Shown here one piece after another: positions 30,588-55,500 of a DNA stretch of 64,000 nucleotides. The notes under the pieces are model-generated. The model saw nothing but the letters and a program-made list of their open reading frames with translations. It was not told the DNA's origin and made no database searches. This DNA comes from Adhaeribacter pallidiroseus (GTDB taxonomy: Bacteria > Bacteroidota > Bacteroidia > Cytophagales > Hymenobacteraceae). Each line of letters begins with the position of its first letter. Position 1 is the first letter of the stretch. Made by a program: the position numbers and the translations under genes. The stretch is from contig NZ_QASA01000001.1 of NCBI RefSeq assembly GCF_003340495.1, positions 3,038,001 to 3,102,000 of the forward strand, in the 5' to 3' direction.

Positions 30588-33500
30588 TTATTTAATTAAT
30601 AGTAGTTTTTGTTGTTGCTTTCCAGTAGGCGTTTGTAGTTGCAGAATATACAAGCCTGCTGCCTGGTTGTAAGCTTTCCACTCAACCTCGTACGGCTGAT
30701 TGGCTTTCACCTCGCCATTAAATAAAGTAGCTACTTCACGGCCTTGACTGTCGTATACTTTTAGGCTGGCTGCTTGCATGTGCGGTAAAGTAAAGCGGAT
30801 AGTAGCTTTCTGCTGAAAGGGATTTGGATAAGCTTGTACCTGTACCGCTTGTACCTGGCTTCCGGTTTCGGGCTGCAAAGCTACCCGGGCCGCTACAGGA
30901 TTACTACTTTCCGGGTTTACCTTAATCAACCAGTAATCGGTACTTCCTTGGCTCAGCTGAGTTCTATCGCCACTTACCCCCGAATCAGATTTACCTCCCA
31001 GTACAAAACCACCATCTTCAGTCAATACCATTGCCCGTAACTCTTCTGGGCCACTGCCGCCAAATGTACGACCGTACTGTTGGGTGCCAACAGCATTAAT
31101 GCGCACTGCCCAATACTCGCTGCCATTCGGTCCGTCTGCCACAGCACCGCTATGTACGTTTAAGGTGCCCGCCAATAGATAATCTCCTTGCTTAGTTTGT
31201 ACTACCGACTGCAGCTCATCTTTGCCCCCAAAACCGTAGCTATTTTCCCGTACCAGGTTGCCATTGCTTTTTATTTGTAAAAACCAGTAGTCGCTTCCAC
31301 CTTTATTCGCCTGTTTTTTGTCGCCGCTTACCTGCGAACTGCTGTAACCACCCACGTAGTAATCGCCGTCTTCGTTGGTTTGCGGGCTATATTCCCGGTT
31401 CATGCCTACTGTGGTCAGCACATCTGCGTAATTACCTCCGTAGCGTTTATCCCAAATCTTATTGCCTTGGGCATCAACCCGTATCAGCCAGAAGTCTTCT
31501 TCGCCCCAGCTGGCCTGTGTTTTGTCGCCGCTGATGCCCGAAGAAGAAGTACCACCCAGAATAAAACCGTTGGTAGCCGTTAAGGTAAAACTGGCTAGGT
31601 TATCGTTTGCACTACCGCCATAGCGCTTATCCCAAACTTTATTTCCCTGGGCACTTATTTTTACCAGCCAGTAATCGTTACGTCCTTGGCTGGGTTGGCT
31701 CTTGTCGCCGCTTACCGGCGAGTCACTGTATCCCGCTAATACGTATTCGCCGCTGGCTAGTCGGAGCACTTGCTTGAGTTCATCATTACCGCTCCCCCCA
31801 AAACGCTTATCCCATTGTTTGTTACCCAAAGCATCAATTTTAACGACCCAGTAGTCGCGCCCACCCCGGCTAGCCTGGCTCTTGTCGCCACTATTATTTG
31901 AAAAAGAGGAACCGGCCAGTAAATAACCGCCATCCTGGGTGGAGATTACCTGATTAAGAAAGTCGTCCTGGGAGCCGCCAAAGGATTTGTCCCATAATTT
32001 TTTGCCATTCTTATCGGATTTTACGATCCAGTAATCGTTTTTACCCTGGCCGCGCTGGCCTTTGTCGCCACTAATGCCCGAGTTGGTGTAACCCCCGCTT
32101 AGGTAGCCCCCATCGGTAGTCTTTATCAAGGTAGTAAAATTATCCCGACCGGAGCCGCCGTAACGCATGTCCCAGGCAGTGGCCCCCGGTTCATTGGGCC
32201 GGCTCTCCGCATTTGCTTGTACTTGTACTACCCAGTAATTGGTGCCCCCCTCGCTGGCGGTACTCTTATCCAAACCGATTTTTGAAACAGAGGTGCCACC
32301 CAGTAAATAACTGCCATCCGGGGCTGGTACCAACGCCGACAGATAATCATTAGCGGTGCCTCCTATAATTTTATCACCTATCTTCTTGCCTTGTTCATTG
32401 ATTTTTACCAGCCAGTAGTTGTTCCCGGCCTGGTATGCTTCGCTGATATCCCCGCCACTACCATCGGTAGAACCACCCAGCAAATAGCCGCCTTCGGGTA
32501 GCGCGGCCACCCTACTTAAAGTGGAAAATCCCCCACCGTAAAAATAGTCAGCTTCGATACTGCCGTAAAAATTATCCCATGCTTTCGTGCCTTGTCCATC
32601 TATTTTGACGACCCAGTAGTCGGAAATATAATGGGTCTCATAATCATCTTCTTCAGAAGCACCTTGCCGGCCTTCGCTGCGTTCTCCTCCTTTTGAGGCG
32701 TTTGAGGTGCCGGCCAATAAAAAGCCTCCATCGGGGGTTGCTACCAAGCCCTGGAGCAAGGATATTCCCTTGCCAAAACTAGCACTGTTGTTTTTTAAAC
32801 CACCATAAGTTTTCTCCCAGATTTTAGTGCCGTCTTTCCGGATGCGCAGCACCCAGTAATCTTTGCTCCCTCGCTGGGCCTGGCCTTTATCCCCGGAAAT
32901 GCCCGAGGCAGAACTACCGCCCACTAAGTACCCATCCGGAGTGGCTAATAGTGCGGCTAAGTGGTCGCTGCCGCTACCGCCAAAAGTTTTGTCCCAGAGT
33001 TTATTACCATTCCCATCTATTTCCAAGATCCAGTAATCGGTGGCACCTTTACCAGCTTGGCTTTTATCACCCGAAACCCCGGAAGCCGAGGTACCGCCCA
33101 GCAGATAACCCTTCGGGGTAGTTATGATGGTCGCCAGGCTATCCTTTTCCGGACCGCCAAAAGATTTATCCCATTGCTTGGTACCTTTGGCATCTATTTT
33201 TATTAGCCAATAATCTTCTTTGCCTTTTCCAGTTTGGCTCTTATCCCCGGAAATACCCGTAGTAGAAGTACCCCCCAGCAGGTAACCGCCATCGGGAGTA
33301 GCCACCATAGTGGTAAGGCGATCCGACTGATTACCGCCAAAGGCTTTATCCCATACTTTCTTACCGGTATTATCGGTTTTTACCACCCAGTAATCGTACT
33401 TGCCTTTACCGGCCTGGCTTTTCGTACCGGTAGCTTCCGAATCTGACATTCCGCCCGCCAGATACCCACCATCCGGGGTGGCCAGCAACGCGGTTAACGT

Positions 33501-35135
33501 TTCGGACTGGCTGCCCCCAAAACTTTGGTCTTGTTGCTTACTGACTAGGGTTGCCACAAAGCTCTGCGCCACCTCTATGGCATTATAGGTCGCATTGCCG
33601 GTTTGCCGCGCTTTTATTACTACTTCGCCCGGTCCGGTTAAGGTAAGTTTATTGCCCTTCACGGTGGCGGCGCCAGAGATTACCTGATAAGATACCGGTA
33701 AACCGGAACCGGCCTGGGCCTGCAACGTTAGAGGCTGTTGGGTGTAGGGTTGCGTTTTAAGGGGCGCAAAACTAAGCGTTTGGTTTTGGCGGATATTGTT
33801 ATCCAGCTTTACTAGCCAGTAATCATCATCATAGCCCGCAAAATATTTTGCCTGGTGCGAATTTTCTGTTTTCTCAAACCCAATGTTGGACCCGGAAGTA
33901 CCAGCTAAGAGGTAATTGCCGTCTTTGGTTTGATAGGCAGCAATCAGGTTGTCCCCGTTCAGGCTGCCAATGGTTTTGTCCCAAAGCTGCGTACCATCGG
34001 CCTTTAACTTTATCAGCCAGTAATCCGCGTAACCTCTATTGGCCTCCGACTTTATACCACCGATCTCGGCGGAAGAAGTGAGACCAAGCAAATAACCCCT
34101 GTCGGTAGTTGCCTGGATCGTGCGGAGCCCGCTGTGGTTGCCATCACCCAAATCATTCGGAATGGTTTTATCCCATACCTTGTTGCCGGCTGCGTTTAAC
34201 TTTACCAACCAAGTTCCGGTTATGTAAGCTGATTTATCACCGGTTTTTCTCGATAAAGAAGAACCACCCAGAATAAAGCTTCCATCATTGGATTGTTTTA
34301 CCGCAATAAGCTCATCCGTAAAGTCCCCACCCAAGGTTTTATCCCAGGCCGGGGTACCATCCGCCTTTAGTTTAAGTATCCAGTAATCATAATCGCCTTT
34401 AGAAGACTGGGTTTTAGCACCGCTCACCCCAGACTTAGAGCTACCCCCTAAAATATAGCCGCCATCTGTCGTTTGCTGAATAGACTCTAATTTATCATCA
34501 TTCGAACCGCCAAAGGTTTTATCCCATACTTTGTTGCCGCTAGCGTCGAGTTTTACCGCCCAGTAATCATTAACTGGATAGCCGTAGTTATCCTTGCCAA
34601 CAATTGCGGAACCTCCCAAGATAAAGCCGCCATCTTGAGTCTGAAGAATGGCGCTCAGATCATCGTCATATTTCCGGCCAAAAGTTTTAACCCAGACTTG
34701 GGTGCCATCCTCCTGCAGCTTGATGATCCGGCAATCATACTTGCCTTGGGTATAAACATTACCCCCCACCAGGTAACCCCCTTCGGCTACTTCCTGGATA
34801 GCGGTAACGTGAAAAGAAGGATCATCCAGACCTTTACTCCAGATTTTACTGCCATCAGCGCCTACCTTGATTATCTCTTCTTTATAGGTAAGTTCATAGC
34901 TTCCCATACGAATAGTGCCCGCTAAAAGAGACCCTCCATCCCGGGTGGGAATAGCTGCATTTAAAGATTCAGAATTGTTGCTGCCAATGGTTTTATCCCA
35001 GATTTTAGATTGGGCTGCGGCCAATTGAGTCAGGCTAAAGCAAAAAAGAAAAGCTGCTCCCAAGCGACGCCACTTTGGGTTCAGACCTGGCGCTAGGGTC
35101 TGAGGCTCGGACAAAAAAGAGTAAGTTTTTTTCAT
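30588..35135 (-). CDS. Giant triple seven-bladed propeller T9SS protein (paralogue 1)
   Basis: A 1,515-residue secreted protein, signal peptide to about residue 41 (FCFSLTQLAAAQ). It contains 21 blade repeats resembling the beta-propeller SBBP type, each like xKxWDKxFGGSxxDxLxxxxxTxDGGYLLGGTSxSGxSGDKSQxxxGxxDYWxVKxD. Seven precede an Ig-like domain (residues about 447-531, LSFAPLKTQPYTQQPLTLQA). Fourteen follow, interrupted after the seventh by a short linker (QANAESRPNEPGA). The C-terminus is a type A T9SS signal (AYPNPFQQKATIRFTL ... GLYILQLQTPTG ... KLLLIK). Predicted: three tandem propellers displayed at or released from the cell surface; ligand unknown. It shares promoter architecture with its upstream paralogue. 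Confidence 0.88.
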   Translation of the reverse strand: MKKTYSFLSEPQTLAPGLNPKWRRLGAAFLFCFSLTQLAAAQSKIWDKTIGSNNSESLNAAIPTRDGGSLLAGTIRMGSYELTYKEEIIKVGADGSKIWSKGLDDPSFHVTAIQEVAEGGYLVGGNVYTQGKYDCRIIKLQEDGTQVWVKTFGRKYDDDLSAILQTQDGGFILGGSAIVGKDNYGYPVNDYWAVKLDASGNKVWDKTFGGSNDDKLESIQQTTDGGYILGGSSKSGVSGAKTQSSKGDYDYWILKLKADGTPAWDKTLGGDFTDELIAVKQSNDGSFILGGSSLSRKTGDKSAYITGTWLVKLNAAGNKVWDKTIPNDLGDGNHSGLRTIQATTDRGYLLGLTSSAEIGGIKSEANRGYADYWLIKLKADGTQLWDKTIGSLNGDNLIAAYQTKDGNYLLAGTSGSNIGFEKTENSHQAKYFAGYDDDYWLVKLDNNIRQNQTLSFAPLKTQPYTQQPLTLQAQAGSGLPVSYQVISGAATVKGNKLTLTGPGEVVIKARQTGNATYNAIEVAQSFVATLVSKQQDQSFGGSQSETLTALLATPDGGYLAGGMSDSEATGTKSQAGKGKYDYWVVKTDNTGKKVWDKAFGGNQSDRLTTMVATPDGGYLLGGTSTTGISGDKSQTGKGKEDYWLIKIDAKGTKQWDKSFGGPEKDSLATIITTPKGYLLGGTSASGVSGDKSQAGKGATDYWILEIDGNGNKLWDKTFGGSGSDHLAALLATPDGYLVGGSSASGISGDKGQAQRGSKDYWVLRIRKDGTKIWEKTYGGLKNNSASFGKGISLLQGLVATPDGGFLLAGTSNASKGGERSEGRQGASEEDDYETHYISDYWVVKIDGQGTKAWDNFYGSIEADYFYGGGFSTLSRVAALPEGGYLLGGSTDGSGGDISEAYQAGNNYWLVKINEQGKKIGDKIIGGTANDYLSALVPAPDGSYLLGGTSVSKIGLDKSTASEGGTNYWVVQVQANAESRPNEPGATAWDMRYGGSGRDNFTTLIKTTDGGYLSGGYTNSGISGDKGQRGQGKNDYWIVKSDKNGKKLWDKSFGGSQDDFLNQVISTQDGGYLLAGSSFSNNSGDKSQASRGGRDYWVVKIDALGNKQWDKRFGGSGNDELKQVLRLASGEYVLAGYSDSPVSGDKSQPSQGRNDYWLVKISAQGNKVWDKRYGGSANDNLASFTLTATNGFILGGTSSSGISGDKTQASWGEEDFWLIRVDAQGNKIWDKRYGGNYADVLTTVGMNREYSPQTNEDGDYYVGGYSSSQVSGDKKQANKGGSDYWFLQIKSNGNLVRENSYGFGGKDELQSVVQTKQGDYLLAGTLNVHSGAVADGPNGSEYWAVRINAVGTQQYGRTFGGSGPEELRAMVLTEDGGFVLGGKSDSGVSGDRTQLSQGSTDYWLIKVNPESSNPVAARVALQPETGSQVQAVQVQAYPNPFQQKATIRFTLPHMQAASLKVYDSQGREVATLFNGEVKANQPYEVEWKAYNQAAGLYILQLQTPTGKQQQKLLLIK

Positions 35136-35225
35136 TAGTTAGTATTGGTTGTAAGAAAACTCCAGGATTAGCCATCTTAGCAAATCAAAGTGAATCCATT
35201 TTTTTGGAGTATAGGTATAGATCAA

Positions 35226-35275
35226 CGAAAGATACGGGTTCAAATAACTTGGTACAATACCTAAACTTAGGTATT
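35226..35275 (-). promoter_or_regulatory. Palindrome-plus-promoter module of propeller paralogue 1
   Basis: The inverted repeat AATACCTAAACTTAGGTATT (35256-35275, plus-strand reading; 2-nt spacer between ATACCTAA arms) lies 121 bp upstream of the start codon. On the minus strand, 21 bases after it, comes TATCTTTCG (35234-35226), close to the TAnnTTTG -7 element. The identical palindrome with identical 21-base spacing precedes the paralogue. Confidence 0.65.
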
Positions 35276-35348
35276 TTATTATATATAAGAGTAATAGTAT
35301 TGTTACCAATTAAGATTTTATATAAACCTGCTCCTATAATCTTTCTAA

Positions 35349-35385
35349 AAACAGGAAGCCGAGCAGAAGTACTCTGACCGGCTTC
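35349..35385 (-). terminator. Terminator of the 35409-40019 gene
   Basis: On the minus strand GAAGCCG (35385-35379) pairs with CGGCTTC (35361-35355) across a 17-nt loop and is followed by CTGTTTTTAG. Confidence 0.6.
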
Positions 35386-35408
35386 GGGAAATAAAAAAAT
35401 TTAAAAAA

Positions 35409-38400
35409 TCACTTGGTTAAGAGTAGTTTTTGGGTGTATTGGTGGGTAGGAGTTTGTAACTGTAACAAGTACATCCCGGCTTCTTGCTTACTAGCTTGCC
35501 ATTCCAGCTCGTAGGGCTGATTGGCTTGTGCTTCCTCTTGCCCTAAGGTGGTGATGACGCGCCCTTGGCTATCAAGTACCCGCAAGATAACCGCTTGTGT
35601 TTCCGGTAAAGTAAAGCGCACGGTTACTTTTTTCTGGAACGGATTCGGGTAGGCTAGCAAGGTTGTTAATTCTGCAGGAGTAACCGAGGCTTCTGGTTCA
35701 AAAGCCGTTCTGTTCGCAATTACCCTATCAGCTTCTCTGCTACCTTTCACCAGCCAGTAATCTTTTACGCCTTGGCTCGGTTGCGTTCTATCGCCACTTA
35801 CCGCCGAAATGGAGCGACCAGCCAACAGGTAGCCGCCATCATTAGTGAGGACCATGGCCCGGAGTTCCTCGTCTTGGCTCCCGCCATAACGTTTATCCTG
35901 AACTACCCCGGAACGATTGGCTTCCACTACCCAGTAATCACTGCCCCCTTGACTATCTTGCGTTTTATCCAGCCACTTACCCGAGCGGGAAGTACCGGCC
36001 AGTAAATAGTTACCGTCGTTGGTTACCTGCACCGCTCGTAGTTCCTCTTCTAAGTTGCCTCCGAATAGCCGATCCCACACTTTGGTGCCCGTACTGGTAA
36101 TTTCTAGCAGCCAGTAGTCGGTTAAACCTCTACTGCGGTAAGTCAAATCCCCTCCAGACTGGGAAGCCGTGGTACCCGCTAAATACAGGTTGCCGGTAGG
36201 CGTTGTACCCAAGGCCATCAGCTTATCATCCCGGGAACCGCCAAAGCGCCGGTCCCAGATTTTCTCTCCGTTGCCTCCCAGGCGTACCACCCAGAAATCA
36301 CTCATACCCCGGTTACCTTGCGTGCGATCCCCTCCGGAACTAGACTGCGAGCTGCCGCCCACCAGCAAGTTACCATCCGGAGCTAAAGCTAAGTCTTCCA
36401 GAATGTCATCGGCACTACCGCCGTAACTCCGATCCCAGACTTTCTGGCCATCGGGGTTGATTTTGAGTACCCAGTAATCCTGACCACCTTTACCCGCCTG
36501 GCTCTTGTCGCCACTTTGGGGCGAGTTGCTGCTGCCGGCTAACAGGTAGCGCCCCGAGGCCAGTTGAATCACTTTCTTTAATTCATCGTCACCGGTACCG
36601 CCGTAACGTTGGTCCCAAAGCTTATTACCTTGGGCGTCCGTTTTCACGATCCAGTAATCCCGGCCACCTCTACTTACCTGGCTTTTATCCCCGCTCTGCT
36701 GCGAATAAGAAGAACCAGCCAGTAAGTAACCACCATCCTGCGTCTGGATGACAGTATTGAGGTAATCATCCGAGTAACCACCAAAGCGTTTATCCCACTG
36801 TTTCTTACCGTTCTTGTCCGATTTCACAATCCAGTAGTCGTTTTTACCCTGGCTAATTTGGGTTTTATCACCGATTGCTCCCGAGTTGGTGTAACCACCA
36901 GATAAATAGCCGCCATCCTGCGTTTTGATCACCGAGGTTAGATTATCCGTGCCAGATCCCCCGTACCGCATATTCCAGGTGCTGGCAACTAGCGGAGTTT
37001 TATCTTTTATTTTGATGATCCAATAATCCTTGAGGCCTTTTAACTCTTCGGCCCGGTCAACGCCAGCGGGGGAATCCGTAACGCCGCCAATTAAGTAGCT
37101 ATTATCCGGGTTAGCGATTAAGGCTTTAAATTCTTCTTCGTGGCCTGTTCCGCCAAAAGTTTTGTCCCACAGTTTCTGACCAGCACCATCCAACTTTACT
37201 ACCCAGTAATCTTCCTCATACTTGCCTCCCCGATTGGCTTCACTCTTATCACCGTAAATGCCGGAACGGGAATTACCACCTAGTAAGTAACCGCCATCTG
37301 CGGTAGCCGCTATTTTAACCAAAATATCCCAACTGTTTCCCCCAATGGTTTTATCCCATTGTTTTTTACCCGTGGCATCTACTTTCAATACCCAATAGTC
37401 CCCAGTAACAAAATTTCCTTCCGGCAGCCCTTTATTGCCTTCACTTTTATCGCCACCGGCCCCGGATTGGGAAGTCCAACCGAGCAAGTACCCGCCATCT
37501 AACGTAGAAATTACCTGTACCAAGGATTCTACACCGCCACCTTTGTAGATTTTATTCCAAAGCTTATGGCCATTCGCATCGATCTTCATAATACCTTGTC
37601 CGAGGTATTTAGGCTCCTTAGTACCAGAGTTAGTTTCCTGGAATGCCCCGCCTAGTATGTATCCTCCATCGGCCGTAGCTAATAAAGAGCTAAATACGGT
37701 AGAAAACTTTATTCCCCAGACTTGCTTACCCGCTGCATCCAGCTTTAACACCAAATTCGTATTTCTTCCTAAATCTCCATCCTCAAAATTCAGCAAGAAG
37801 CCGCCGTCCGGGCCAATTATCAGGTTCTTCAACCGGTCTCGTCCAAACTGTCTGCGCAGGCTTTTATCCCATAACTTATTTCCCTGGGCATCAATCCGGA
37901 CTATCCAGTAATCAAAACAGCTGTTGGCACTCGCACAAGCTTCGCTTTTATCGCCAGTTTTGCCGGAGTTTGAGTTACCAGCTAGTAAAAAGCCGCCGTC
38001 AGGCGTAGCTACCATGGCGGCTAGTTCCTCCCAGCCATCTCCTCCGAAGGTTTTATCCCATAACCGATGACCATTGGCATCTACTTTTACTACCCAATAA
38101 TCTAAGTATCCTTCGTTAGGATACGGATAAGCACAAAATCTTTCTGGTCCCCGCAGATTTTCACTTTTATCGCCACCTTTCTTTGAATCAGAACTACCCC
38201 CCAGCAGGTAACCACCATCCGCCGAAGCAACCATGGTAGTAAAGATAGATGTGCCAAAATCATTACAATCCGACTCGGGAGCTTGCGGAGTTATTGTTAC
38301 CACTCCGCCGTATGTTTTATTCCAAACTTGGGTAATGGGTAAATTATATACTTCAAATTTTTCAATTATTTCCCGTGCCGCATCGTAAGTAGCATTGCCC

Positions 38401-40019
38401 GCTTGGCTAGCTTTCACGGTTACCAGACCCAGGCCAGTAAAGGTAAGCTGATTGTTTTTAATCTTAGCCGGACCAGAAACTACGGTAAAGCTAACGGGTA
38501 AACCAGAAGTAGAAGTAGCTTGCAAGGTAATAGAAGCAGTTGCTATATCCTGATTCGGGATGTTTTTAAAGGTAATCGCTTGTTCTTTACCCGTGTTGAT
38601 GTTATTATCCAGTTTAACGATCCAATAGTCTAACGAACCTCTGGAGGTTTCTGATTTATCACCTTTTACTCCAGAGTTAGAAGCGCCGGCGAGTACGTAA
38701 TGACCATCCCGAAGTTGGATAGCGGCGGCCATTTTATCATCATATTCACTGCCAATGGTTTTGTCCCAGGCTTTGCTGCCGTTAGCATTTAGTTTTACAA
38801 TCCAATAATCATAGATGGGCGATTCATCCGTGTAATAATTTAAACCCTGATTGCCTTCTCTTTTGTCACCCGAAGCATCGGAATTAGAAGAACCCCCAAT
38901 CAGATAACCTCCATCTGTGGTTTGCAGGACAGTGGTTAAGCCTTCATAAGCATTTCCGCCTAAAGTCTTATCCCACACTTTGGTACCATCGGCTTTGAGC
39001 TTAATAACCCAATAGTCCATATAACCATTTTTTGCTTCCGACTTGTCGCCGCTAATATCTGAGTAAGAAGTACCACCTAAAATATACCCTCCGTCCTGGG
39101 TTTGCACCAAAGAAAATAGCGTATCAGAACTGTTACCACCAAAAGTTTTATCCCATTCTTTATTTCCATCAGCATTTATTTTTATTACCCAGTAGTCCTC
39201 ATCACCTTTACTGGCTTGTGTTTTATCTCCGCTAATGCCGGAATAAGATTCTCCCCCTAAAATATAGCCGCCATCGCTGGTTTTTTGCAGCGAAAGTAAG
39301 CCATCATAACTATTGCCGCCAAAGGTTTTGTCCCAAGCTTTACTGCCATCGGCATTTACTTTTACGATCCAGAAATCATAAGAAGCCACCTTGCCTCCTT
39401 TATCCGGATCTGACTTTGAACCGGATACGGGCGAATTAGAGGTGCCTCCCAGTAGAAAGCCGCCATCGTTGGTTAGCACTAAACTCGAAAAACGATCTAT
39501 ATCGCTGCCACCAAAAGTTCGGTCCCACATTTTTACCCCATTGGCATTGAGCTTAACCAGCCAATAATCATTGGGGCCAAACGAAGCCTGGCTTTTTACG
39601 CCGCTAATCGGCGATGCTGAAGTGCCCCCCAGAATATAACCGCCATCGGGTGTTTGCTGTACAGTTTTCAACTCATCGCGTTCTTTACCGCCAAAAGCAT
39701 TATCCCAGGCTTTTGTGCCATCGGCATTTAATTTTACGACCCAATAATCGACATCCCCGCGGCTGATGCTGGTTCTATCGCCTCCTTTTCCGGAGCGAGA
39801 AGTACCTCCCAAAATAAAACCACCATCGCGGGTTTGTTCAATCGAACTGATCTCGTCTTCTTCGGAACCACCGTAGGTTTTATCCCAAACTTTATGTTGA
39901 GCCGAAGCAAAATTTAAAAAATTAAAGTAAATAAGTAAAAACACTCCGAAAGAACGCCACCACGGCTTCGTATCTCGAGTGGTTAGCAGTCGGTGCACTA
40001 GGGTAATTTTTGTTTTCAT
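35409..40019 (-). CDS. Giant triple seven-bladed propeller T9SS protein (paralogue 2)
   Basis: A 1,536-residue secreted protein with signal peptide cut after FASA/Q (residue 40). Organisation parallels paralogue 1: seven WDKTFGG...GDK...DYWIVK blades (residues 41-470), an Ig-like domain (about 478-560, AITFKNIPNQDIATASITLQ), seven blades, a linker (KIKDKTPLVAS), seven blades, then a type A sorting domain (AYPNPFQKKVTVRFTLPE ... GMYLLQLQTPTHQ ... KLLLTK) from about 1452. Blades 3 and 4 of the second propeller are divergent (SLRRQFGRDR; GIKFSTVFSS). Tandem, same-direction arrangement and shared upstream motif suggest gene duplication. Function unknown; surface adhesion or glycan/protein binding is plausible. 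Confidence 0.88.
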   Translation of the reverse strand: MKTKITLVHRLLTTRDTKPWWRSFGVFLLIYFNFLNFASAQHKVWDKTYGGSEEDEISSIEQTRDGGFILGGTSRSGKGGDRTSISRGDVDYWVVKLNADGTKAWDNAFGGKERDELKTVQQTPDGGYILGGTSASPISGVKSQASFGPNDYWLVKLNANGVKMWDRTFGGSDIDRFSSLVLTNDGGFLLGGTSNSPVSGSKSDPDKGGKVASYDFWIVKVNADGSKAWDKTFGGNSYDGLLSLQKTSDGGYILGGESYSGISGDKTQASKGDEDYWVIKINADGNKEWDKTFGGNSSDTLFSLVQTQDGGYILGGTSYSDISGDKSEAKNGYMDYWVIKLKADGTKVWDKTLGGNAYEGLTTVLQTTDGGYLIGGSSNSDASGDKREGNQGLNYYTDESPIYDYWIVKLNANGSKAWDKTIGSEYDDKMAAAIQLRDGHYVLAGASNSGVKGDKSETSRGSLDYWIVKLDNNINTGKEQAITFKNIPNQDIATASITLQATSTSGLPVSFTVVSGPAKIKNNQLTFTGLGLVTVKASQAGNATYDAAREIIEKFEVYNLPITQVWNKTYGGVVTITPQAPESDCNDFGTSIFTTMVASADGGYLLGGSSDSKKGGDKSENLRGPERFCAYPYPNEGYLDYWVVKVDANGHRLWDKTFGGDGWEELAAMVATPDGGFLLAGNSNSGKTGDKSEACASANSCFDYWIVRIDAQGNKLWDKSLRRQFGRDRLKNLIIGPDGGFLLNFEDGDLGRNTNLVLKLDAAGKQVWGIKFSTVFSSLLATADGGYILGGAFQETNSGTKEPKYLGQGIMKIDANGHKLWNKIYKGGGVESLVQVISTLDGGYLLGWTSQSGAGGDKSEGNKGLPEGNFVTGDYWVLKVDATGKKQWDKTIGGNSWDILVKIAATADGGYLLGGNSRSGIYGDKSEANRGGKYEEDYWVVKLDGAGQKLWDKTFGGTGHEEEFKALIANPDNSYLIGGVTDSPAGVDRAEELKGLKDYWIIKIKDKTPLVASTWNMRYGGSGTDNLTSVIKTQDGGYLSGGYTNSGAIGDKTQISQGKNDYWIVKSDKNGKKQWDKRFGGYSDDYLNTVIQTQDGGYLLAGSSYSQQSGDKSQVSRGGRDYWIVKTDAQGNKLWDQRYGGTGDDELKKVIQLASGRYLLAGSSNSPQSGDKSQAGKGGQDYWVLKINPDGQKVWDRSYGGSADDILEDLALAPDGNLLVGGSSQSSSGGDRTQGNRGMSDFWVVRLGGNGEKIWDRRFGGSRDDKLMALGTTPTGNLYLAGTTASQSGGDLTYRSRGLTDYWLLEITSTGTKVWDRLFGGNLEEELRAVQVTNDGNYLLAGTSRSGKWLDKTQDSQGGSDYWVVEANRSGVVQDKRYGGSQDEELRAMVLTNDGGYLLAGRSISAVSGDRTQPSQGVKDYWLVKGSREADRVIANRTAFEPEASVTPAELTTLLAYPNPFQKKVTVRFTLPETQAVILRVLDSQGRVITTLGQEEAQANQPYELEWQASKQEAGMYLLQLQTPTHQYTQKLLLTK

Positions 40020-43567: not shown

Positions 43568-46500
43568 TTACCGGACAACAAGTCGGGTACTTACTTTATT
43601 TGATCTGGAAATTGCCGTGATCATGTAAACTCCGGAGCTTAAGCGTTTCGTAAACACCAGGTTGGTTCTTAAATCACCGTCGGCATTAGTCGTTGCTTTC
43701 TCTTTTTGAATTACACTACCCTGGGCATCGTACAACAGAATGGTTACTTCTTCATTCGCCATAAAATTGCTTCCTTCCACATTGGTCTGATCTCCCGGAT
43801 TTGGGTTTGGATATACCGTTAGCACAGAAGTAACAAGTTCACCAACACCACTTTCCCGAACAGATCCGGCCACCGTAGTTGCCAATCGGGTGGTAGTTTG
43901 TGGCAGTACTTCAATGGCTGATATGGTTGGCATATCGACGGAACCACTCATAAAGTTGATATTCAAAACCCCGTCGGTGATAGTTACCGGAATGGTTTCC
44001 TGAACTAAACGCATGCCACCACCGGCTTTCGCATATACATCGTAGTTAGTAAACTTGCGGCTGCCTTCTACATCTACGTTAAATTGGCGGCGACCAGCGG
44101 CAGTGTGATAAATTTCCACAAAGTGCAGCATCACATTATAGGTGCCGTTGCTTACCGGTATGTTGTAGTTAAACGAAGCCGCAGAACGCTCATTGCGGTA
44201 CATCACGTCATCGGTGGTATTTAAAATATCGCCGCTGGCAATGGAGAAGGTCCGGTTCATGCCCCCAAAATACTGGTCAGCAATAAACTGACGGTTTCCG
44301 GAAGCTAAATAGGCGGTACCACCGGCATTGATGCGAATAGCGTTAGCGGCTACCACGTTGTTTACCGTTACCGTAATTTGCTCGTCATCCATCATGGCGG
44401 GTGTTCCATTATCGGTTACCCGAACCGTAAAGGTATACGTTCCGGCTGTAGCTGGTGTCCAGGTGAAGGCGCCCGTGGAAGCGTTGATGGTGGCTCCGGT
44501 AGGTTGACCTACTAAAGAGAATGCTCGTGTTTGGTTCGCATTGGCGTCGGTAGCGGTAGCCGTGAAAGTCAAGGCTTGGTTTACGTTTACCGTTTTGTTG
44601 CCAATGGCGGCTAATACCGGAGCTACGTTGGTTGTTGTAATTGGCAGTACTTCAATAGCCGAAACTTTAGGTAAGTTGGCCGCTCCTGAAGTAAAGTTAA
44701 TATTCAACACTCCGTCGGTGATAGTTACCGGAATGGTTTCCTGAATAGCCCGTAACGAACCACCAGCTTTAGCAAACACATCGTAATTGGTAAGTTTACG
44801 ACTGCCTTCCACGTCTACGTTAAACTGTCGGCTTCCTACTCCACCCGCTCCCCGGCCCGAAACGCCGAACCAGATTTCCGCAAAGTGTAGTACCACATTT
44901 ACCTGGCCATTTTGTACCGGAATGCTGTAGGTAAAGGCGGCCGATGAACGTTCCGTACGATATAATACATCATCCGTTGTGTTCAAAATATCTCCACTAG
45001 CTATGGATGAAGTACCGGCGGTACCCCCGAAGTACTGATCAGCAATAAACTGGCGGTTGTTCGTAGCTAAATAAGCCGCTCCGCCCGCGTTGATCCGAAT
45101 ACCATTTCCGGCTACCACGTTGTTTACCGTTACGGTAATTTGCTCGTCGTCCATCATGGCGGGTGTTCCATTGTCGGTTACCCGTACCGTAAAGGTATAC
45201 GTTCCGGCTGTAGCTGGTGTCCAGGTGAAGGCGCCCGTGGAAGCGTTGATGGTGGCTCCGGTAGGTTGACCTACTAAAGAGAATGCTCGTGTTTGGTTCG
45301 CATTGGCGTCGGTAGCGGTAGCCGTGAAAGTCAAGGCTTGGTTTACGTTTACCGTTTTGTTGCCAATGGCGGCTAATACCGGGGCTACGTTGGTTGGGGT
45401 TACCGATAATACTTCAATGGCCGAGATTGTTGGCTGATTCGCCGTTCCCGTCGTGAAGTTAATATTCAATATTCCATCCGTAACGGTTACCGGAATAGTT
45501 TCCTGTACCGCGCGCATACCACCACCTGCTTTGGCGAAGATGTCGTAGTTGGTCAGCTTGCGGCTGCCTTCCACATCCACGTTAAACATCCGGTTACCAT
45601 TTCCGGCCGGGCCGCGACCCGCTGCACCCGTAAACCAGATCTCGGCAAAGTGTAACACTACGTTTACTGGTCCGTTGGTTACCGGAATGCTGTAGGTAAA
45701 GGCGGCGGCTGACCGCTCATTGCGATACAGTTCATCATCGGTAGTGTTCAAAATATCGCCGCTGGCAATAGAAGATACAGTGTTGGTACCTCCAAAATAC
45801 TGATCGGCAATAAACTGGCGGTTGTTAGATGCCAGGAAGGCACCTCCTGCCGCATTTATCCGGATGCCGCTGGCCACTGGGCAGTTTTGTTCGCGGGTTA
45901 CCGTTACTTGCTGCGTTCTGCTGCATCCCGAAACATCCAACACAGTTACCGTGTAAACGCCCGGTTGCAAATTAGTAGCCGTAGCGCCGGTTTGAGCTGG
46001 GGTAGTACTCCAGGTTATGGTGTAGTTACCAGTTCCACCGGTAATGTTACTTACGGTAGCGGTGCCCGAGGCGGCCGTACACGTCATAACCGGTGCATTT
46101 ACGATAAAGGCCAAATTGTTACGCTCCGGAATGGTAAATACTTTCGCAGTTTCGCAACCATTGCTTACATTTTCTTTCACGTAGAAAGTAAACGAACCGG
46201 CGGTTAAATTAGTAAATACCGGCGAAGTTTGGTAAGTACCGTTTGGTCCTAATTTGTACAAGTAAGAACCAACTGTAGAGTTGCTTACTCCGAAGGTAAT
46301 GGATCCGTTAGCTACTCCGCATTCCGCACCTACTACTGTTTGCTGCGTCAGCGTAACTGCGTTTGGATTGGCTGAGGCCGCAAATACTTCCATACCCGCT
46401 AGAGCTACCCGGTTCACACTCGGATTAAAGGTCACGTCGAGTTTGCCATCGGTTATATTTACCACAAAATCTTTCACCAGGGCTGCTTTATAACCAGCCT

Positions 46501-49500
46501 CCCGGAAGATATCCAGGTTTGACTGCCGGGTTTGATTTTCCAGTTTAATACCGAATACGCGGGATCCTTCTGCCGTAAAGAAGTTTTCTACAAAGTGCAT
46601 GCGTACCATGTAATTACCATTTGCTAAAGGTACCGAGTAGCGGGTTTCGCCTAAATCAGCGGCCGCTGACAAGTAAGTCTGATACAGCGCATCTTCATCG
46701 GTGCCGGCAATTGGGGTAACAGCTGGCCGGTCTAGTTGCACTGATCCGGCGCGGTAAGTACGGTCTGCTTCCCATACTTTACCGTTTATGGTTACGTTTG
46801 CGTCCGCGCCGCCTTTAATGCGTTTTACAGCGGTAATCAGGTTGCAATTATCATCGGCAATGCCGTACAGCGGAATCCGGAGTGGTGATAAGCCATTGTT
46901 GTAATGCACCAACAGGGCAGCATTTTTAATTCCCTGGCTGTTCGACCGGAAAGTAACCGTAAGGTTAGTGGTAGCCTGCGGAGCTAGCGTTGTTACTGCC
47001 GGAGCAGCTACGGCAAACTCATTCAGGTTGGCCCCCACTATTTCTACACTCTTAATAGTAACAACCGGATCGGTGGTACCATTGGCATACGTTTGTCCCA
47101 GGTTTTTCAGTTCTACGGTGCGGGTTAAAGCCGCGCCAATTTGCCGCGAACCAAAATCAACCGCCGAAGGAGTTGCCGCCAGTTCGGAGTAATTCAATGA
47201 ACCGGTTTCGGGTTTAATGTTACTCACGTAGAAAACATTATCCTGGTAGTCGTAATTGGTTACGTCGGGGTTACCAATGTAATCGTGGCCAATGATGTAC
47301 GCGTTCGGAATTATGTTTCCGTTGGCGTCAATGGCTTTCCAAACCCGCATACCTATTTTGCCTTCGGAGTTACGGGTCCGGTCGGAGTAAGAGCCACTAA
47401 TTTTAAATCCAAAGCTACCGGTTGGGTTAAAATTACCTTCGGCAATGGTGCCGGCAGTGCCATTCCGTAAAGGCAGCAACGATTGGCCGTCCAGTGGATG
47501 ATGGGTAAACACGGTTGCATTGCTGGTAGAACCTTTCGTGTAGTACTGGAAGGATTCGGTAGCGGCGCAGCAGCCATGGTAAGCACCCATCTGCACTACA
47601 TAAACCGGCTTGCTGGCATCGGCCCGGGTAAAGAACGAAGAAAGTATTTCATCGGTGTTCAATACCAAAGTGTTACCGGTGTTCGTGCCGTCGTTGGTGT
47701 TAAAGCCTACGGTAGATTTAAAGCCGAATGCCCGGATTATTTCCTGTGCATGGGGTTCATTACTACCTTCCCCGCGGGCTTGCCACATACCATGCAGTAC
47801 AATTTTCTTTTTCGGAGATAAATCGTCGTTGGTTGCAATTTGCAAGGTATCGTTCAGAATCCGGATTCTTCCGGAAGTAAACTGCGCGATAAACTGCACA
47901 CTTACTTCTACCGAACTACCTGCATTTACCGTGATTGGAGCAGCCGTAATGGGGTCATAATCTACATTATTTACTTTTGCTACTTTCCAGCCGGTAGGGT
48001 TAGAAAGCGTTAAGCCGTTAATGGTTAAGGCACCGGTTCCTTTATTGCTAATCCGCATTTTAACAACGTCGTGATTGCGGTTAAAAGGAGTAAAAGTACC
48101 GTCCTCATTTTCTCGCCGCCATGGCGTTTGAATCAGGGAAGCTACCAACCGGTCGTTGGCCGGGAATTTATCCAGATTCTCCACTAACATATTAGCATTG
48201 CTAGGCTCTGGCTGCACAACGGTAAAAGTAATGGCATTGGTGATAGTTTCATTTTTGTTGCCATCAATTGCCTTACCTCGTAAGGTATAGCTGCCCGGCG
48301 TATTTACTAATATTGGGGCATAGTATTCCTTATACGGTTCGTTGTTCAGGCTGTACTGCACTTGCGCCAGATTTGATCCACCAGCATCCGTAGCGTTTAC
48401 CGTAGCAATTACCTGATTGCGGTACACACCCGTTGCTTGTAAAGTGCCTTTTAACTGCACGGTAGCCATTGGTGGCAAGAAGTCACTCTCTGCCGTAGCC
48501 GGATCCACAATTACAAAGGTGATCTTCGTGTTGGTACCGCCATTAGCGTCAATGGTTAGTTTGCCATCCGTAACCGTAACCGTGGTCGTAACAATCTGAT
48601 GCGGCACTTGCGCCGTTGGCACAAAGTTGTTAATAGCCGTTACACCTTCCACGTTAATCCGGTGATTACTATCAAAGAAATCATTATCACCAGCCCCAAC
48701 CGTTACGTTGTATTGACCATTAGTTACTTTTAATTCCCAGGCACCCGGAGTTTGCGGCGCTGTTCCTTGCATTAAGGCCAAGGTTTTTAACCGCAGATCG
48801 GCATTAGCGGAAGTCCGTTCGCGCATACTGGCGGTGTGATCCTTGGGTTCTTTGGTTGTTGGATTTATCCAGCCATAACCCCGGGTATCGTTGTAAAGCA
48901 AACCGGCATCTACGGCATAACCAGCCGGAGTAGTTGCCGTAGCAGTAGTAGCTACCTGGAAGTTAATTTTAATTGCATTGGCACTGGCATCGCCTATGCG
49001 CAGGTTAACCGTCATTACAGAATTAGTAAAGCCACTGGCACTAGCCGTTACCGTAGTGGTATATACTCCAGCCGTTAAGCCAGCAGTGTTGATGCCAAAT
49101 GATAAGTTACCTACCGCCGCAGTTGGTAAAATCAGCCAATTGCTGTTAGCTGATTTTGTTAAGGTAATTACAGTTGGTGTGCCATTTAAAGCTTCCAGGG
49201 TTATTGTTTTAGCTGCTGCAGTGCCATTTACCGGGGCGGTATAATTAAGCGTGCTAGTGTTAAAAGCTAAAGTTTTACGCGTTCCGGCGGCCACCACGTT
49301 TCTTAATACAAACATGTAATCCTGATAATCGCCGTTAGAAGCATCCTCGAAGCAGACCAGGTAGCTGTTCGGTACCAGTTCGCCCTTCCGGTTTTTCAAC
49401 GGGTATGTCCGAACCGCGTGTACTGCTGGCGCACCGGCGTTCAACAAGTCTTCGGTATAAGATATCCGGTTTTCTAAGCCCACTACGTAAATACCAAACG

Positions 49501-52500
49501 CAGCGGTTGCAGGATTAAATTGGTCGGAGCCAGCTACAATCTGCGGGTATAAAGCATTATGCTGGCCAAACACTCCCGAAAGAGTTCCCACGGAGGAGCG
49601 TACCGGGGTGTTATTAGTTTTAGTATAATACCCGAATGGTAACTCTTGATTCGGTGAATAGCGGGCAACCGGTGTAATTGTTACCGCCCCATCGCCGGCT
49701 TTTTCAAAAAATTGTACCGCCACTTCTTCTCCCTTCAGCGTGGATTGAATGCCGCCGGCTAAACCAGTCCATCCTACATTAATGTTATAACCTAAGGTAT
49801 TAACCACGGTTTGCAACGGTGGCTCGTTATTGCCTTCATACGCGTTTAAGGACATAGCATATAAACCAACTGAAAGCGCCGGTGTATTTACAGCGTTGCT
49901 GTTGATGGTTAATGCAGCATTAAAAGTACTCACAACACTTAAATTGCCAGGAGCAAAAGTTACCTGCAAAGTTTTTGTTTCCTCTGGCGCTAAAGAATTA
50001 CCAATTGGTTCTCCTTCCACGGTTATTGCCTGTACACTAAAGTTGGAAGCATTTGCTCCACTTATGGCAAGGTTACCTAAATTTAAGGCACTGGTACCAG
50101 TATTGGTTATGGTCAGACGTTTGGTAACTGTGGTATTTTTAAGACCATCAAACACTAGCTCTTCGCTGCTGGCAGCAATGGTAGCAGCCGATACCGGATT
50201 ATTTACGGTAAGACTTACCGGCAGCGTGGCGCTGGTGTAACCATCGGCTGATACCGTAACAGTAGCATTATAGGTGCCTGGTAATAAACCGGCTTCGTTG
50301 ATACTAAATGTTAAGGAACCAAGCGCAGCCGTTGGCAAGGTTAGCCAGTTGCTGCTTGCCGATTTCGTGATAGTTAAGGCCGGAGTTCCGGTGCTGGCCG
50401 AAAGAATTACCGTCTGCGGAGCCGTAGTAGTGCCGGGAGTAAAAGCGAATGCCAAAGAAGGACTGGCAAAGGTTAATTGTTTGGCTACCACTTGGCCGAA
50501 AGGTTTCACATTCCGGACAATCACGGCAATGTCCTGGTAGTCGTAGCCACTGATATGTTCTTCCGTAGCAATTACATAAGAGTTTTCTATTACGGTTCCT
50601 TCGGCATCTTTTAACGGATATACCCGAACATGATGCGGTACGGCGCCAGTAAAGTTATTCAGGGCATCTTCGCTGTATAAATGACGGTTCGCAAAGAACG
50701 GCCAACGCGAGTAGAAACCAAACGACGTAATACCTGGGTCAAAAGAAAGCGACCCGGCTGTTTGCACATCTACGGTTTGATAATTACTATTATCCACTGT
50801 GAACAACTCATTTTTATCATTGGCATTTCCGGTAGTATACCAGCCAAAGGCAGTAACAATACCAGATGGATCCTGCGGACCAAATACCGATAGAGGCTCA
50901 ATGAGCACTAAACCATCAGTAGCCCGTTGGAAGGCCTGAATAGATACTTCTTCTCCTAAAAGAGCGGCTTTAAAATTAGTGCTATGGATGATATTTGTAG
51001 ATCTATTATCATCGCCAACGTTCACATTAATGCCGTGTACGTCCAGAACAGCTTGTAGCGAAGGTTCATTTGTGCCCGACAAGCCAATGGTCCCTAAACC
51101 GTTCAGTTTTACTTCTTTTACCGGATTGTTGGTGCTGCTTACTAATAAGCTAGCTGTTTTTACTCCGGTAGTAGTAGGATTAAATGCTACGTTAAAGGTA
51201 ATAGCACTACCCCGAGCTACAGTAACTGGAGCAGCAACACTTGGTGTAGGTGCTCCTACCACCTGGAACTGAGCTTTATCTACACCATCAAGGGTAATGC
51301 CTGTTACTGTTAAGTTACTATTACCTGTATTGGCAATTGTAATGGTATGGTTTTTACCAGCCGAGCCGCCAACTACATCATTGTCCACTATTTCGCTTGG
51401 GCTCACACTTGCAATACCAACTTGCGCGGATGGAGCTGTTGCTTTCAGTAATACAATCTGGGCGGTTTTACCAGCGGTGTTATTCCAGTTATATTCAATT
51501 ACGTACAAGTTACCAGTTTCTACGTCTTCGGTTATATCCAAGGGGTTAGTAAATCCGGAAAGTCCTGTAATTCCATTTGTACCAGAACCCGTTTGAGCTC
51601 CAATAATGTCGTAAATTTTGTCATCACTATCGGCTGAGTTTACAGCTGGATCTTTTGCCATTGAACCTGGTTCTAACACAATAATGTCACTTCCACCACT
51701 AAAGCGGCAAACGAGGATTCTACCTTTTAAAGCACCGCCAAAAGCGTTACTCTTATACTCAATGGCTCCGTTTGGCGATTTGTTTAGTTCAAAATTGTAA
51801 GCGGCGCCCCGGTAATTCGCATCCGGTCCTTGCGTAGTTGCATACTTCGGATTATCTAAATATCCCCGATTTGCAACATACTCACCCCGAAGCGGGTTTG
51901 GATGACCATAGTAGCCTACTGGTTTTAACGGATTAATCCGGAATAACCAATCGTTCTGTACTTTCACGCCGGTGGTGGCAGGTACTACTGGTCCGTTATA
52001 GAAGGTTCCATTTGGCCGGCGAGTGCCTGCTATAGAAGCAGGAGAATTTCCGCCGGCAGCCGAACCATTGGCAGGTACATATAACTGACCGTTTGAATGC
52101 CATACCAAATCAACGGCATTCCGGACACCTGAAGCATAAATAGTTAAAGGCGAGTTAGTGGCATATGGGTTATATGTGCCGTCAGATAAACGAATATTAT
52201 CCGTAGGTGCATTGTTAATTAAAGCCTGGTTGGCTGTAGTCCGAACATCTAATGGCAATGTTAGTCCAGAAAGCTTACTTAAATCCAAACGTAACACGGT
52301 AGCGGCTAATAAACTTTCATCGCGTTGCCAAGTACCGTCGTAGCTACCCATAGAACTCAAACTTCCTTGATTGAAATACAAGGCACCGTCTGGTCCAAAA
52401 GCTATACTGTTTACCAGGTGATCTGCTTTAGAACGCGGCAACTTGGTCAGTATTAGTTCTTCTGTGGCTAAGTCCGGGCCACTAAGCCGGGATATGTTCC

Positions 52501-55500
52501 CATCAAACTCAGGTGCATTGGTAAGACCAGCACTGCAATGCGATACATAAGCAATCAGGTTAGTAGCCGTGGCATTAGGAGCAAAAGTTAAACCTACTGA
52601 AGAACGCAAGCCGTATTTGTTAGTTAAGGATTTAATTTCTACCACTCCGGACAGCATACCGGTTGTCCGGTCTATGTTAAAGCGTTCGATTACTCCATCT
52701 AAACGTAAGGCATAGAATTTACCATCTGGCCCAAAAGTTAAGCAGGTGTATTTCTTACCCACTGTTCCCGGGATAACCTGCTTTGGTGCAAACTCAGCCG
52801 CAACCGGGTTTGGTGTTCCGGCAGTAGTACCACCGGTAGTAAACGTAGCTTCGTATGGCAAGAAGGCCGCACCGCTGTGCGATTTAACTTGGTTGGTGAT
52901 AACAAACCGGTACTTGGTATTAGGTTCCAGAGCAAACGCCGGTGAGAAACTAATAGCATCACCACCGCCAGTTCCTTGTACCACTCCTTGAATTTCTGTG
53001 GTAGTAGTACCGCTTATTTTTAAAACTTTTACGGTATTTACGGTCAGCGTAGAATTATCAACCCCACCTTTAAAACCAGCTACCTCTGGTACGTAAAGGC
53101 TATTTGCAGCAATGCTGGAGGTATTTACACTAACATTAACAGCTCCGTTGGCGGGAGTAGAAGATATTACATAGGGCTGGTTACTGCCGGGAGCTAATAC
53201 TGTAATTTGAATTAAAGTACTGGCCGGAGTATAACCTGTAGCAGCCGCCGTAATAGTAGCAGTGTAAGTGCCTACCGCTAAAGCTTTAGCAGTAGTATAA
53301 TCAAAAGTTACGTTTGGTTCACTGCTGTTGTGCGTGGCATCAAAGCTTAACCAATTAGTTGCTCCGGCCCCATAAGTAGCAGTTAAAGCAATTGGTAAAT
53401 TATCCAGATCAGCAGAGTTGCCTAAATCCAGCGAGAAGGTTTTATTTGTCTCGGTAGTTCCTCTTTCAATTACCAGGCTGTGGTCACTAGCCGACCAGAT
53501 CAGGTAAGGTGCTACACTAATTGGTGTAATAAGTGCCGAGTTGATTTTGGTGTTAATACCGCCATCTGCGTTAATGGTTAGGAACCCATCGGCTACGGTT
53601 ACCCGTACTTTAGCCGATTTAAAACGAGTAGCTGTTCCGGCTGTTCCAGTAGGCACAAAGTTCGAGAATGCATTTACGCCTTCTACGTTTAAGGTATGAC
53701 TTTCCGGTACGGTTCCCGGATCAGAATCGCCGGCAGAAACAGTAACGTCGTACGAACCATTTGGCACTTTAATTTCCCAATAGCCTTCGATTTTGGTACC
53801 ATTAAAAGTACCATCAATGGTATTTGCCTGCATATGCATTAGGGTAGCCTGCAACACATCGGCTGGAGTGGTACGTTTACGACCATTGCCCGGCGTAGTA
53901 CCTCCCACGGATAAATCCAACAAAGAACCATCGGAACGTCTTCTCCAACCATATTCTAAGTTAGTTCCTTGATTAGTGCCGGTTTTTAAACCAAATGGTT
54001 GCCCGTAATCTTTTATCCAACCAGTGGGTGGTACCGTTACCGGATCCTGGAAGTTTACTTTGATTTCCTGCGCTGCAACTGGCGAATTAATAGTTAAATT
54101 AATTAACAAGGTTGCTGGCTCATATCCTTGGGCCGTAGCCGTAACAGTGGCTTCGTAAATACCAGGAGCTAAAGTCGAACTAAAATTATTGGCACCAAAG
54201 GCCACATTACCTAAAGTAGCAGCTGGTAAGGTGAGCCAGCTAGCCGGTGTACTGGTAAAAGTAACAGCAGGTGATCCTTCACTGGCGGCTAAAACCGCGA
54301 GTTTAGTGGCAACAGCCTGACCTTGTATCGCTGTAAAATCAAGAGCATTTGGCGCAAAAGCCAACATTTTACCAGTTGCATTCTCCTTTGTTAAAGCAAA
54401 ATTTTCGAAGGTGAAGGTTACCGGGTTGGCGGCATTCCGGTACGTAGCAAAAATACCAGCGTACGCTACTTTTCCGGCCAAAGTTAAATTAGCAATGTCC
54501 AAAGAAGGTGTAGCATATCGGGCTCCAACATTTAAATAGGTAATACCATCGGTAGAGTAGAAACCTTCTAATTTATTGTTTACCAAGTCAACTACTAAAC
54601 GTAGGCGTACTGTTTGGCTGTTCAACCCAGAAATTGCCGTTAATAAAATTCGTTGATCGGGGTTGTTTAAACCATTGTTGGTGGCATCGGTAGAAGAAAC
54701 ATCATTTAATTCCCGACGCATTTCAATCTTATTACCTGAAACATCCAGTTTTACAAATGTTTTATCGTTTAAACCTAACCATAAACCTGCTTGTTCAGAG
54801 TTTGATCCATTAAAAGGATTAACGATCGTTGTTTCCAGGGTAAGTTTACCATTAGCCAGAACTCCCACTCCTAAAGTATTGACCTGGTTATTGTTAGCCA
54901 GGAAGGAGATACCTTTGTTAGTTTGAACGCTCAACCTACCATTAGCTACTGTTAACCGAGATGGTTCATAACCGGTTACAGCGGTAGATGAGGTTCCATC
55001 AACTGCCAGGCGGGTACCCGAATATGCTTCTACCATAGTAAAGCCTGTTTGAGCGCTATTTTTGTCGATCAAACCACCTTCCGTACCATCAAAGTTGAGT
55101 ACAAACGGTAAAGGCACATTAATTTGCTCGCAAGGTAAAGTGCTTATAGGTGAACAAGGGACCACCACGGGGGCAGCTTCAACATTAATAGTGAAAGAAG
55201 CATTAGCAGCAGCCAGAGCTTTATCAGTAGCCGTAATGCGTACCACGATACTTGTGGCAATAACCGGAGCTGTGCCACTAAAAGTCTGGGTATTGGCATC
55301 AAACTGTAACCAAGTAGGCAAATCGCTGTTGTTAGCTAGTGAAGCGCTATACGTCAACACATCTCCTGCATTCGGATCTGAGAAAGAGCCGGTAAGAAAG
55401 GAGAAAGGCTGGCCAGCCGTGATCGTTTGGGTTTCTGGAGCTGACACCACTCTAGGCGCTTCGTTGGCCGCTTGTACCGTAAGCGTAAATTCGGTACTCA

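Follow-up and report, generated by a model that had tools for sequence, protein, structure and literature searches.

Two neighbouring open reading frames on the minus strand of the window (the whole stretch of 64,000 nucleotides of Adhaeribacter pallidiroseus DNA that was analysed) encode, according to the ORF list and the translations, paralogous proteins of 1515 (P1) and 1536 (P2) amino acids. When the translations were split at the WDK and DYW anchors, both proteins yielded 21 units of approximately 60 residues in the same layout: seven units, an Ig-like domain, seven units, a short linker, seven units and a T9SS type A sorting domain. The features are listed below in window coordinates, with the supporting evidence in parentheses.

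35409..40019, minus strand: P2, 21-bladed putative T9SS cargo of 1536 aa, upstream paralogue (ORF, translation, 21 units)
39900..40019, minus strand: P2 putative signal peptide, residues 1-40, ending ...FASA before Q41 (read by eye)
38595..39899, minus strand: P2 propeller 1, seven blades, residues 41-475 (unit split, HMM, seams, 28 strands in the model)
38331..38594, minus strand: P2 Ig-like spacer, residues 476-563 (non-repeat sequence between blocks; beta strands in the model)
37005..38330, minus strand: P2 propeller 2, seven blades, two of them degenerate, residues 564-1005 (unit split, HMM, 28 strands in the model)
36984..37004, minus strand: P2 linker DKTPLVA between propellers 2 and 3 (unit split, seam scoring)
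35742..36983, minus strand: P2 propeller 3, seven blades, residues 1013-1426 (unit split, HMM; homologous to the CylK propeller)
35421..35651, minus strand: P2 T9SS type A C-terminal sorting domain (PF18962 E 4.6e-10, TIGR04183 E 2.6e-9, both above cut-off)
30588..35135, minus strand: P1, 21-bladed putative T9SS cargo of 1515 aa, downstream paralogue (ORF, translation, 21 units)
35013..35135, minus strand: P1 putative signal peptide, residues 1-41, ending ...LAAA before Q42 (read by eye)
33801..35012, minus strand: P1 propeller 1, seven blades, residues 42-445 (unit split and HMM, from the sequence alone)
33546..33800, minus strand: P1 Ig-like spacer, residues 446-530 (unit split; beta strands in the model)
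32217..33545, minus strand: P1 propeller 2, seven blades, residues 531-973 (unit split, HMM, 28 strands in the model)
32181..32216, minus strand: P1 linker ANAESRPNEPGA between propellers 2 and 3 (unit split, seams; low pLDDT in the model)
30915..32180, minus strand: P1 propeller 3, seven blades, residues 986-1407 (unit split, HMM, 28 strands in the model)
30600..30830, minus strand: P1 T9SS type A C-terminal sorting domain (PF18962 E 1.9e-7, TIGR04183 E 5.2e-9, both above cut-off; seven strands in the model)

Independently of the anchor split, an iterated HMM search that started from the units and took in relatives detected 21 units in P1 and 21 in P2. The two degenerate blades in propeller 2 of P2 (residues ~717-820) could be counted, as they retain a WDK-like start and a recognisable strand C. 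In many paralogues blades 5 and 6 of propeller 2 (blades 12-13 of the protein) carry long variable insertions in the loop between strands D and A. The sequence-only reading had counted 21 blades per protein, arranged as 7 + Ig + 7 + 7, with a non-repeat linker after the 14th blade. The count was borne out by the anchor split and by the independent HMM, and the linker was found at that place in both proteins.

Elsewhere in the window, genes for a Gfo/Idh/MocA oxidoreductase, a gluconate 2-dehydrogenase subunit 3 and a GMC oxidoreductase stand in a row downstream of P1 and P2 (26195-29851, minus strand), with no evident link to the propeller proteins. At 43568-59917, also on the minus strand, there is an ORF of 5449 aa in which repeated cadherin-like and malectin-like stretches were recognised by eye, and whose C-terminal tail is sorting-domain-like.

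The C-terminal domains (CTD) scored 36.0 (P1) and 36.9 (P2) bits with TIGR04183, for which the cut-off is 23, and 31.7 and 40.1 bits with PF18962, for which it is 27. The N termini of both proteins display, by eye, a hydrophobic stretch and an Ala-x-Ala motif before a Gln, and are putative Sec signal peptides. Of the T9SS components, PorU is intact in the same genome (1402 bits). The translocon gene sprA (C1:3969468-3976525; L216 ~1500-1513) is present as two adjacent frames, split near a run of G, and in six other near-complete genomes of the genus it occupies one frame of 2418-2442 aa. The split is either an assembly indel or a real lesion. If it is real, export would fail in this strain, which counts against the secretion reading.

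The order of the strands within a unit, as read from P1 and P2, is D (WDKTYGG), A, B and C (DYWxVK), and every block of both proteins has strand D first and strand C last. If cleavage precedes the Gln, the mature N terminus falls almost at the first strand D. Propellers are usually closed by a velcro, in which the first strand of the block completes the last blade. Because the blocks of P1 and P2 run from D to C, their first strand is left over to complete the last blade, which amounts to velcro closure. In P1 and P2 the hairpin between strands C and D is absent at the two block ends. The seams were located by scoring this hairpin at each junction of 93 proteins in which 14, 21 or 28 units had been detected, and which are related and do not represent independent draws. 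The hairpin was broken at junction 7 in 29 of 32 proteins with 14 units, and at both junctions 7 and 14 in 59 of 60 proteins with 21 units. At the other junctions of the same 93 proteins the frequency of broken hairpins was 0-25%, and the arrangement in blocks is not put down to chance.

One AlphaFold model covers propeller 1, the Ig domain and propeller 2 of P2 (residues 42-1012), and the other the part of P1 from the Ig domain through propellers 2 and 3 to the CTD (residues 450-1515). These overlapping pieces together span every domain type, and both were modelled with alignments of 46 in-register relatives. Mean pLDDT was 88.5 for the P2 model and 86.0 for the P1 model; at pTM values of 0.62 and 0.54, respectively, the models do not give the placement of one ring relative to another. 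Both models contained 28 strands per propeller, four in each blade, and the CTD of the P1 model had seven. The open solenoid, which the sequence-only reading had named as one outcome contradicting closed rings, did not appear in either model.

A Foldseek search of the PDB returned CylK first for both models. CylK is a solved, closed seven-bladed propeller (PMC8916777). The P2 model was superposed on four of the five CylK entries with an rmsd of 2.5-2.8 A over 432-441 columns, and on the fifth with 3.3 A (the match does not specify whether propeller 1 or 2 is concerned). The TM scores of 0.55-0.56 are normalised by the whole CylK chain of 633-653 residues, of which the propeller makes up about two thirds, and thus the number of superposed columns corresponds to a whole ring. 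The superposition of the P1 model, with an rmsd of ~15 A over ~520 columns crossing domains, is less informative. Homology between the repeats and CylK was also detected by phmmer (E 4e-24) and by a profile search (E 1e-40).

CylK (PDB 7ron, 7roo, 7fh6-8), the cylindrocyclophane alkylating enzyme, shares with P1 and P2 a homologous propeller and the unit pattern W..x..G - D/E - G - D.W..K.D..G. It differs from them in being a cytoplasmic biosynthetic enzyme with one propeller and an N-terminal Ca2+-binding domain, whereas P1 and P2 have three propellers, an Ig spacer and a T9SS tail. Inspection of the sequences and Pfam and NCBIfam searches revealed no N-terminal Ca2+-binding domain of the CylK type in P1 and P2. 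The activity of CylK needs Arg105, contributed by this N-terminal domain, and substitution of the propeller residues Glu374, Leu438, Asp440 and Tyr473 left little or no activity (PMC8916777). In the unit model these four residues align with repeat positions 12, 10, 12 and 46, respectively. CylK holds Ca2+ in a loop at every blade junction (PMC8916777). In 57 proteins of the present family the acidic position 11 of the repeat, located in the blade-junction loop, is D in 74%, and by analogy it is a fair guess that P1 and P2 would also carry Ca2+ at each blade junction.

The number of units was determined in two sets of relatives. The first set, drawn from the own genome and from genomes of its genus, family and order, contained 53 intact ORFs with 21 units, 31 with 7, 20 with 14 and one with 28. 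The second set consisted of 75 named loci from a GTDB genome scan and 30 loci from a phylum-wide search, which gave a match in 125 of 297 genomes. It contained 99 ORFs with 7 units, 12 with 14, four with 21 and four exceptions; in reading these numbers it should be taken into account that L105 and L114, as well as L107 and L121, appear to be the same loci, from one Pontibacter assembly, and that some ORFs were counted in both sets. Genera with WDK/DYW propellers obeying the rule of seven include Hymenobacter, Pontibacter, Rufibacter, Adhaeribacter, Dyadobacter, Runella, Emticicia and Chitinophaga.

Counts that deviated from the rule were inspected individually. Five apparent counts of 20 or 22 resolved to 7+7+7, the cause being HMM splits or degenerate blades, and the odd counts of another 16 ORFs are apparently those of fragments, mostly neighbouring ones, of genes that a frameshift or stop has disrupted (L013, L052, L054, L064, L077, L094, L103). 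In two divergent ORFs four (L045) and six (L047) units were detected. The four exceptions of the second set had counts of 13, 13, 12 and 10; L112, L118 and L171 have 14 units by eye, and L140 has seven units plus a distant propeller of eight. In this Pontibacter mangrovi protein (L140:5899-9678) the distant SBBP-type propeller, with eight YNGP-type units by eye, is N-terminal and fused to a seven-unit WDK/DYW propeller. A Thermoplasmata archaeon MAG (CP070751; L178:5611-13263) encodes 21 detected units of ~52 residues in one run, which has no visible seams and could not be divided, and the adjoining frame has at least 16 units. The expectation that homologues would occur in multiples of seven thus holds for the WDK/DYW subfamily, whose intact close relatives have 7, 14, 21 or 28 units. 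Because L140 carries an eight-unit SBBP-type propeller, the rule is a property of this subfamily and not of all SBBP-like propellers.

Three closed seven-bladed propellers in series, as proposed in the sequence-only reading, is the arrangement that best fits the block ends in D and C, the 28 strands per block, the CylK fold as top match and the occurrence of relatives in sevens. This architecture of P1 and P2 is well supported and we regard it as very probable. The closure of each of the six rings taken separately is predicted from the strand count, the seams and the match of the P2 model to CylK.

The repeats of P1 and P2 were not recognised by Pfam at E values up to 1. The best NCBIfam repeat matches were NF047494 (SBBP/LipL53; E 5e-27 to 4e-34) and TIGR02608 (delta-60; E 9e-9). 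The NF047494 scores, 94.6 and 118.3 bits, are below the equivalog cut-off of 400, and TIGR02608 gave 35.1 bits with P2 and no match with P1, the domain cut-off being 76.5. Unlike P1 and P2, LipL53 is a Leptospira lipoprotein and not a T9SS cargo. The T9SS proteins with a single propeller found in Hymenobacter, Pontibacter, Rufibacter, Adhaeribacter and others are built from the same WDK/DYW blades, seven in number, and mostly have a C-terminal tail of the length of a sorting domain; in contrast to P1 and P2 with three rings, they have one ring (or two) and mostly lack an Ig spacer. Three seven-bladed propellers in one polypeptide have been described in CPSF160 and DDB1, in which the third is assembled from three discontinuous stretches (PMC5760199). 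These are intracellular eukaryotic proteins of the WD40 type with a non-linear arrangement, whereas in P1 and P2 each ring is one continuous stretch. Pereira and Lupas (2022) described blade runs folding into several rings, and in their WD40-like set the histogram of blade numbers peaks at 7 and 14 (PMC9218822). That set is a continuum of blade numbers with peaks, whereas the WDK/DYW subfamily shows multiples of seven with visible seams.

The sequence-only reading had called three propellers in series a design not known to it among described T9SS cargo classes. This stands in part: in the literature searched, mostly without subscription papers, no account was found of T9SS cargo in which three or four of these rings follow one another linearly, or of the expansion of such a class. 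However, single seven-bladed T9SS propellers are widespread in Bacteroidota and triple propellers are known in eukaryotes (PMC5760199). The blade type, the fold, the secretion route and the one-propeller T9SS cargo are known, and what is unusual is the fixed multi-ring assembly together with the expansion.

In the genome of A. pallidiroseus 126 stretches match the repeats, including about 15 intact members with three or four propellers, broken copies and shorter members. Roughly 15 paralogues form a tandem array of ~69-70 kb (C1:4211842-4280901; L050-L054), on one strand and with hardly anything between them; most are 21-bladed, one is 28-bladed, one is 14-bladed and several are broken by a frameshift or stop. 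The 28-unit paralogue, of 1999 aa (C1:4230603-4236603; L051:11565-17600), has the layout 7, Ig, 7, Ig, 14, corresponding to four propellers. Further copies are scattered in the genome, with a 21-unit copy located on a 103-kb contig (C2:37518-41912; L108). A copy with 51.5% identity was found on plasmid NZ_CP055155.1 of Adhaeribacter swui, and the family may travel on plasmids. Matching stretches number 116-199 in four of the eight genomes of the genus and 2-12 in the other four, and thus the size of the family differs more than tenfold between genomes of one genus. In a promoter scan the matches were moderately in excess, and no transcript structure emerged clearly from them.

To compare the three propellers, identities were calculated for 57 in-register 21-bladed proteins. 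Median identity was 0.59 for propeller 3, 0.50 for propeller 1 and 0.47 for propeller 2. Between paralogues, blades of propeller 3 were 0.585 identical at the same position and 0.463 at different positions. The corresponding values for propeller 1 were 0.515 and 0.505, with 0.523 between blades within one protein. Within one ring of P1 or P2 the blades are only 41-52% identical, which sets them apart from the highly repetitive propeller proteins surveyed by Pereira and Lupas. Judged by these identities propeller 3 appears to be a settled module, conserved position by position, which propellers 1 and 2 are not, and the blades of propeller 1 look interchangeable, through either blade copying or weak positional constraint. 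When propellers were rotated against each other, a slight preference for the same register was seen, which is weak evidence on the order of whole-propeller duplications.

In the same 57 proteins the four most variable of the 60 repeat positions were 10, 31, 12 and 46 (entropy 3.74-3.76 bits). Three of these four (10, 12 and 46) are the positions that hold essential residues in CylK; the cleft residues Tyr473 and Asp440 are not kept in this family, their equivalents, positions 46 and 12, being near-maximally variable. dN/dS was estimated from nine close pairs, 67-84% identical and not all independent, in which dS is near saturation. The ratio was ~0.12 over the repeats, 0.24 at positions 10, 12 and 46, 0.23 at other top-loop positions and 0.13 in the loops of the bottom face. 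The value over the repeats indicates that proteins of this type are under clear constraint, and the value at positions 10, 12 and 46 that the cleft positions, although they differ between paralogues, are preserved within a lineage. This pattern would suit divergence of binding specificity. It may also reflect the relaxed constraint of exposed loops, as dN/dS is raised but below 1 and the other top-loop positions behave alike.

Taken together, P1 and P2 are probably T9SS-secreted, and probably surface-attached, binding proteins made of three closed CylK/SBBP-like rings. The sequences and models themselves show the number of units, the seams, the homology to CylK, the fold, the sorting domain, the size of the family and the pattern of variation. 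Secretion, surface display, ligand binding and any particular ligand are what we infer; the binding role by itself comes close to an even chance and falls slightly short of it.

Several other explanations were weighed. Least probable, and strongly disfavoured, is an open solenoid, or rings with a number of blades other than seven, for example with a 14-blade run split as 6+8 or falling into 7+7 by chance. Linear arrays of other kinds of repeats do form solenoids, runs of 15 WD40-like blades have been modelled as 7+8 (PMC9218822), and the SBBP-type propeller of L140 has eight units, but the D and C ends of the blocks, the seams, the counts in relatives, the 28 strands per block and the superposition on CylK all speak against this possibility. 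An enzymatic role of the propellers, whole or partial, such as the CylK propeller has, is quite unlikely; the substrates would in this case be secreted or environmental ones. Such a role would agree with the closest solved relative being an enzyme and with the position-by-position conservation of propeller 3 across paralogues, as would be expected of a catalytic domain. Against it, the domain supplying Arg105 in CylK (PMC8916777) is absent, the positions essential in CylK are the least conserved ones in this family, and Pfam and NCBIfam searches detected no other catalytic domain in P1 and P2. On account of the variable essential positions and the missing N-terminal domain, a CylK-based enzymatic function was dropped as first choice.

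A structural role, in which the proteins serve as long, stiff, Ca2+-stabilised spacers or as a surface coat, the repeats being kept for their shape and the variation being neutral, is unlikely, if less so than an enzymatic one. The very high copy number, the large size, the interchangeable blades of propeller 1 and the conserved acidic position 11, which matches the Ca2+ at every junction of CylK (PMC8916777), are compatible with it. However, three closed rings of one set size, with one of them conserved position by position, are more than a pure spacer would require, and the cleft positions are conserved within lineages. Slightly less probable than the enzymatic explanation is that the expansion is selfish or non-adaptive, the array growing and decaying by unequal recombination and most copies having little function. 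The tandem arrangement, the several broken copies and the more than tenfold difference in matches within the genus are what such a process would produce, but the low dN/dS over the repeats of close pairs and the intactness of frames of ~1500 codons in most copies argue against it.

In the preferred explanation, a secreted surface protein with binding rings, the T9SS would export the chain and the CTD would serve attachment. Propeller 3, the conserved module, would lie nearest to the anchor or sorting domain, and propellers 1 and 2 would be further out, with ligand clefts on their top faces. Strand D (WDK) of each block would complete the last blade, which ends in DYWxVK, and this would keep the units in sevens. 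The differences between paralogues at the positions lining the cleft in CylK would provide a repertoire of specificities, for glycans, matrix or other cells. That a Bacteroidota lineage has in this way derived a surface recognition repertoire from one seven-bladed propeller, in which each chain has three or four rings, the base ring is conserved, the clefts of the outer rings are diversified between some 15-20 paralogues and the size of the family swings more than tenfold between species of one genus, is a tentative proposal, which we think clearly less likely to be true than false.

The number of blades in propellers usually drifts through blade copying, and the WDK/DYW subfamily departs from this drift. 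In propeller 1 the blades look interchangeable, yet their number stays a multiple of seven and the seams lie exactly between the rings, which would make these proteins a clean natural example of closure limiting the copying of repeats. Should different ligands be bound by the outer rings, these proteins would represent a bacterial recognition repertoire built on one scaffold and open to paralogue-by-paralogue study, and a gene expansion that ranks among the largest in these genomes would thereby be given a function.
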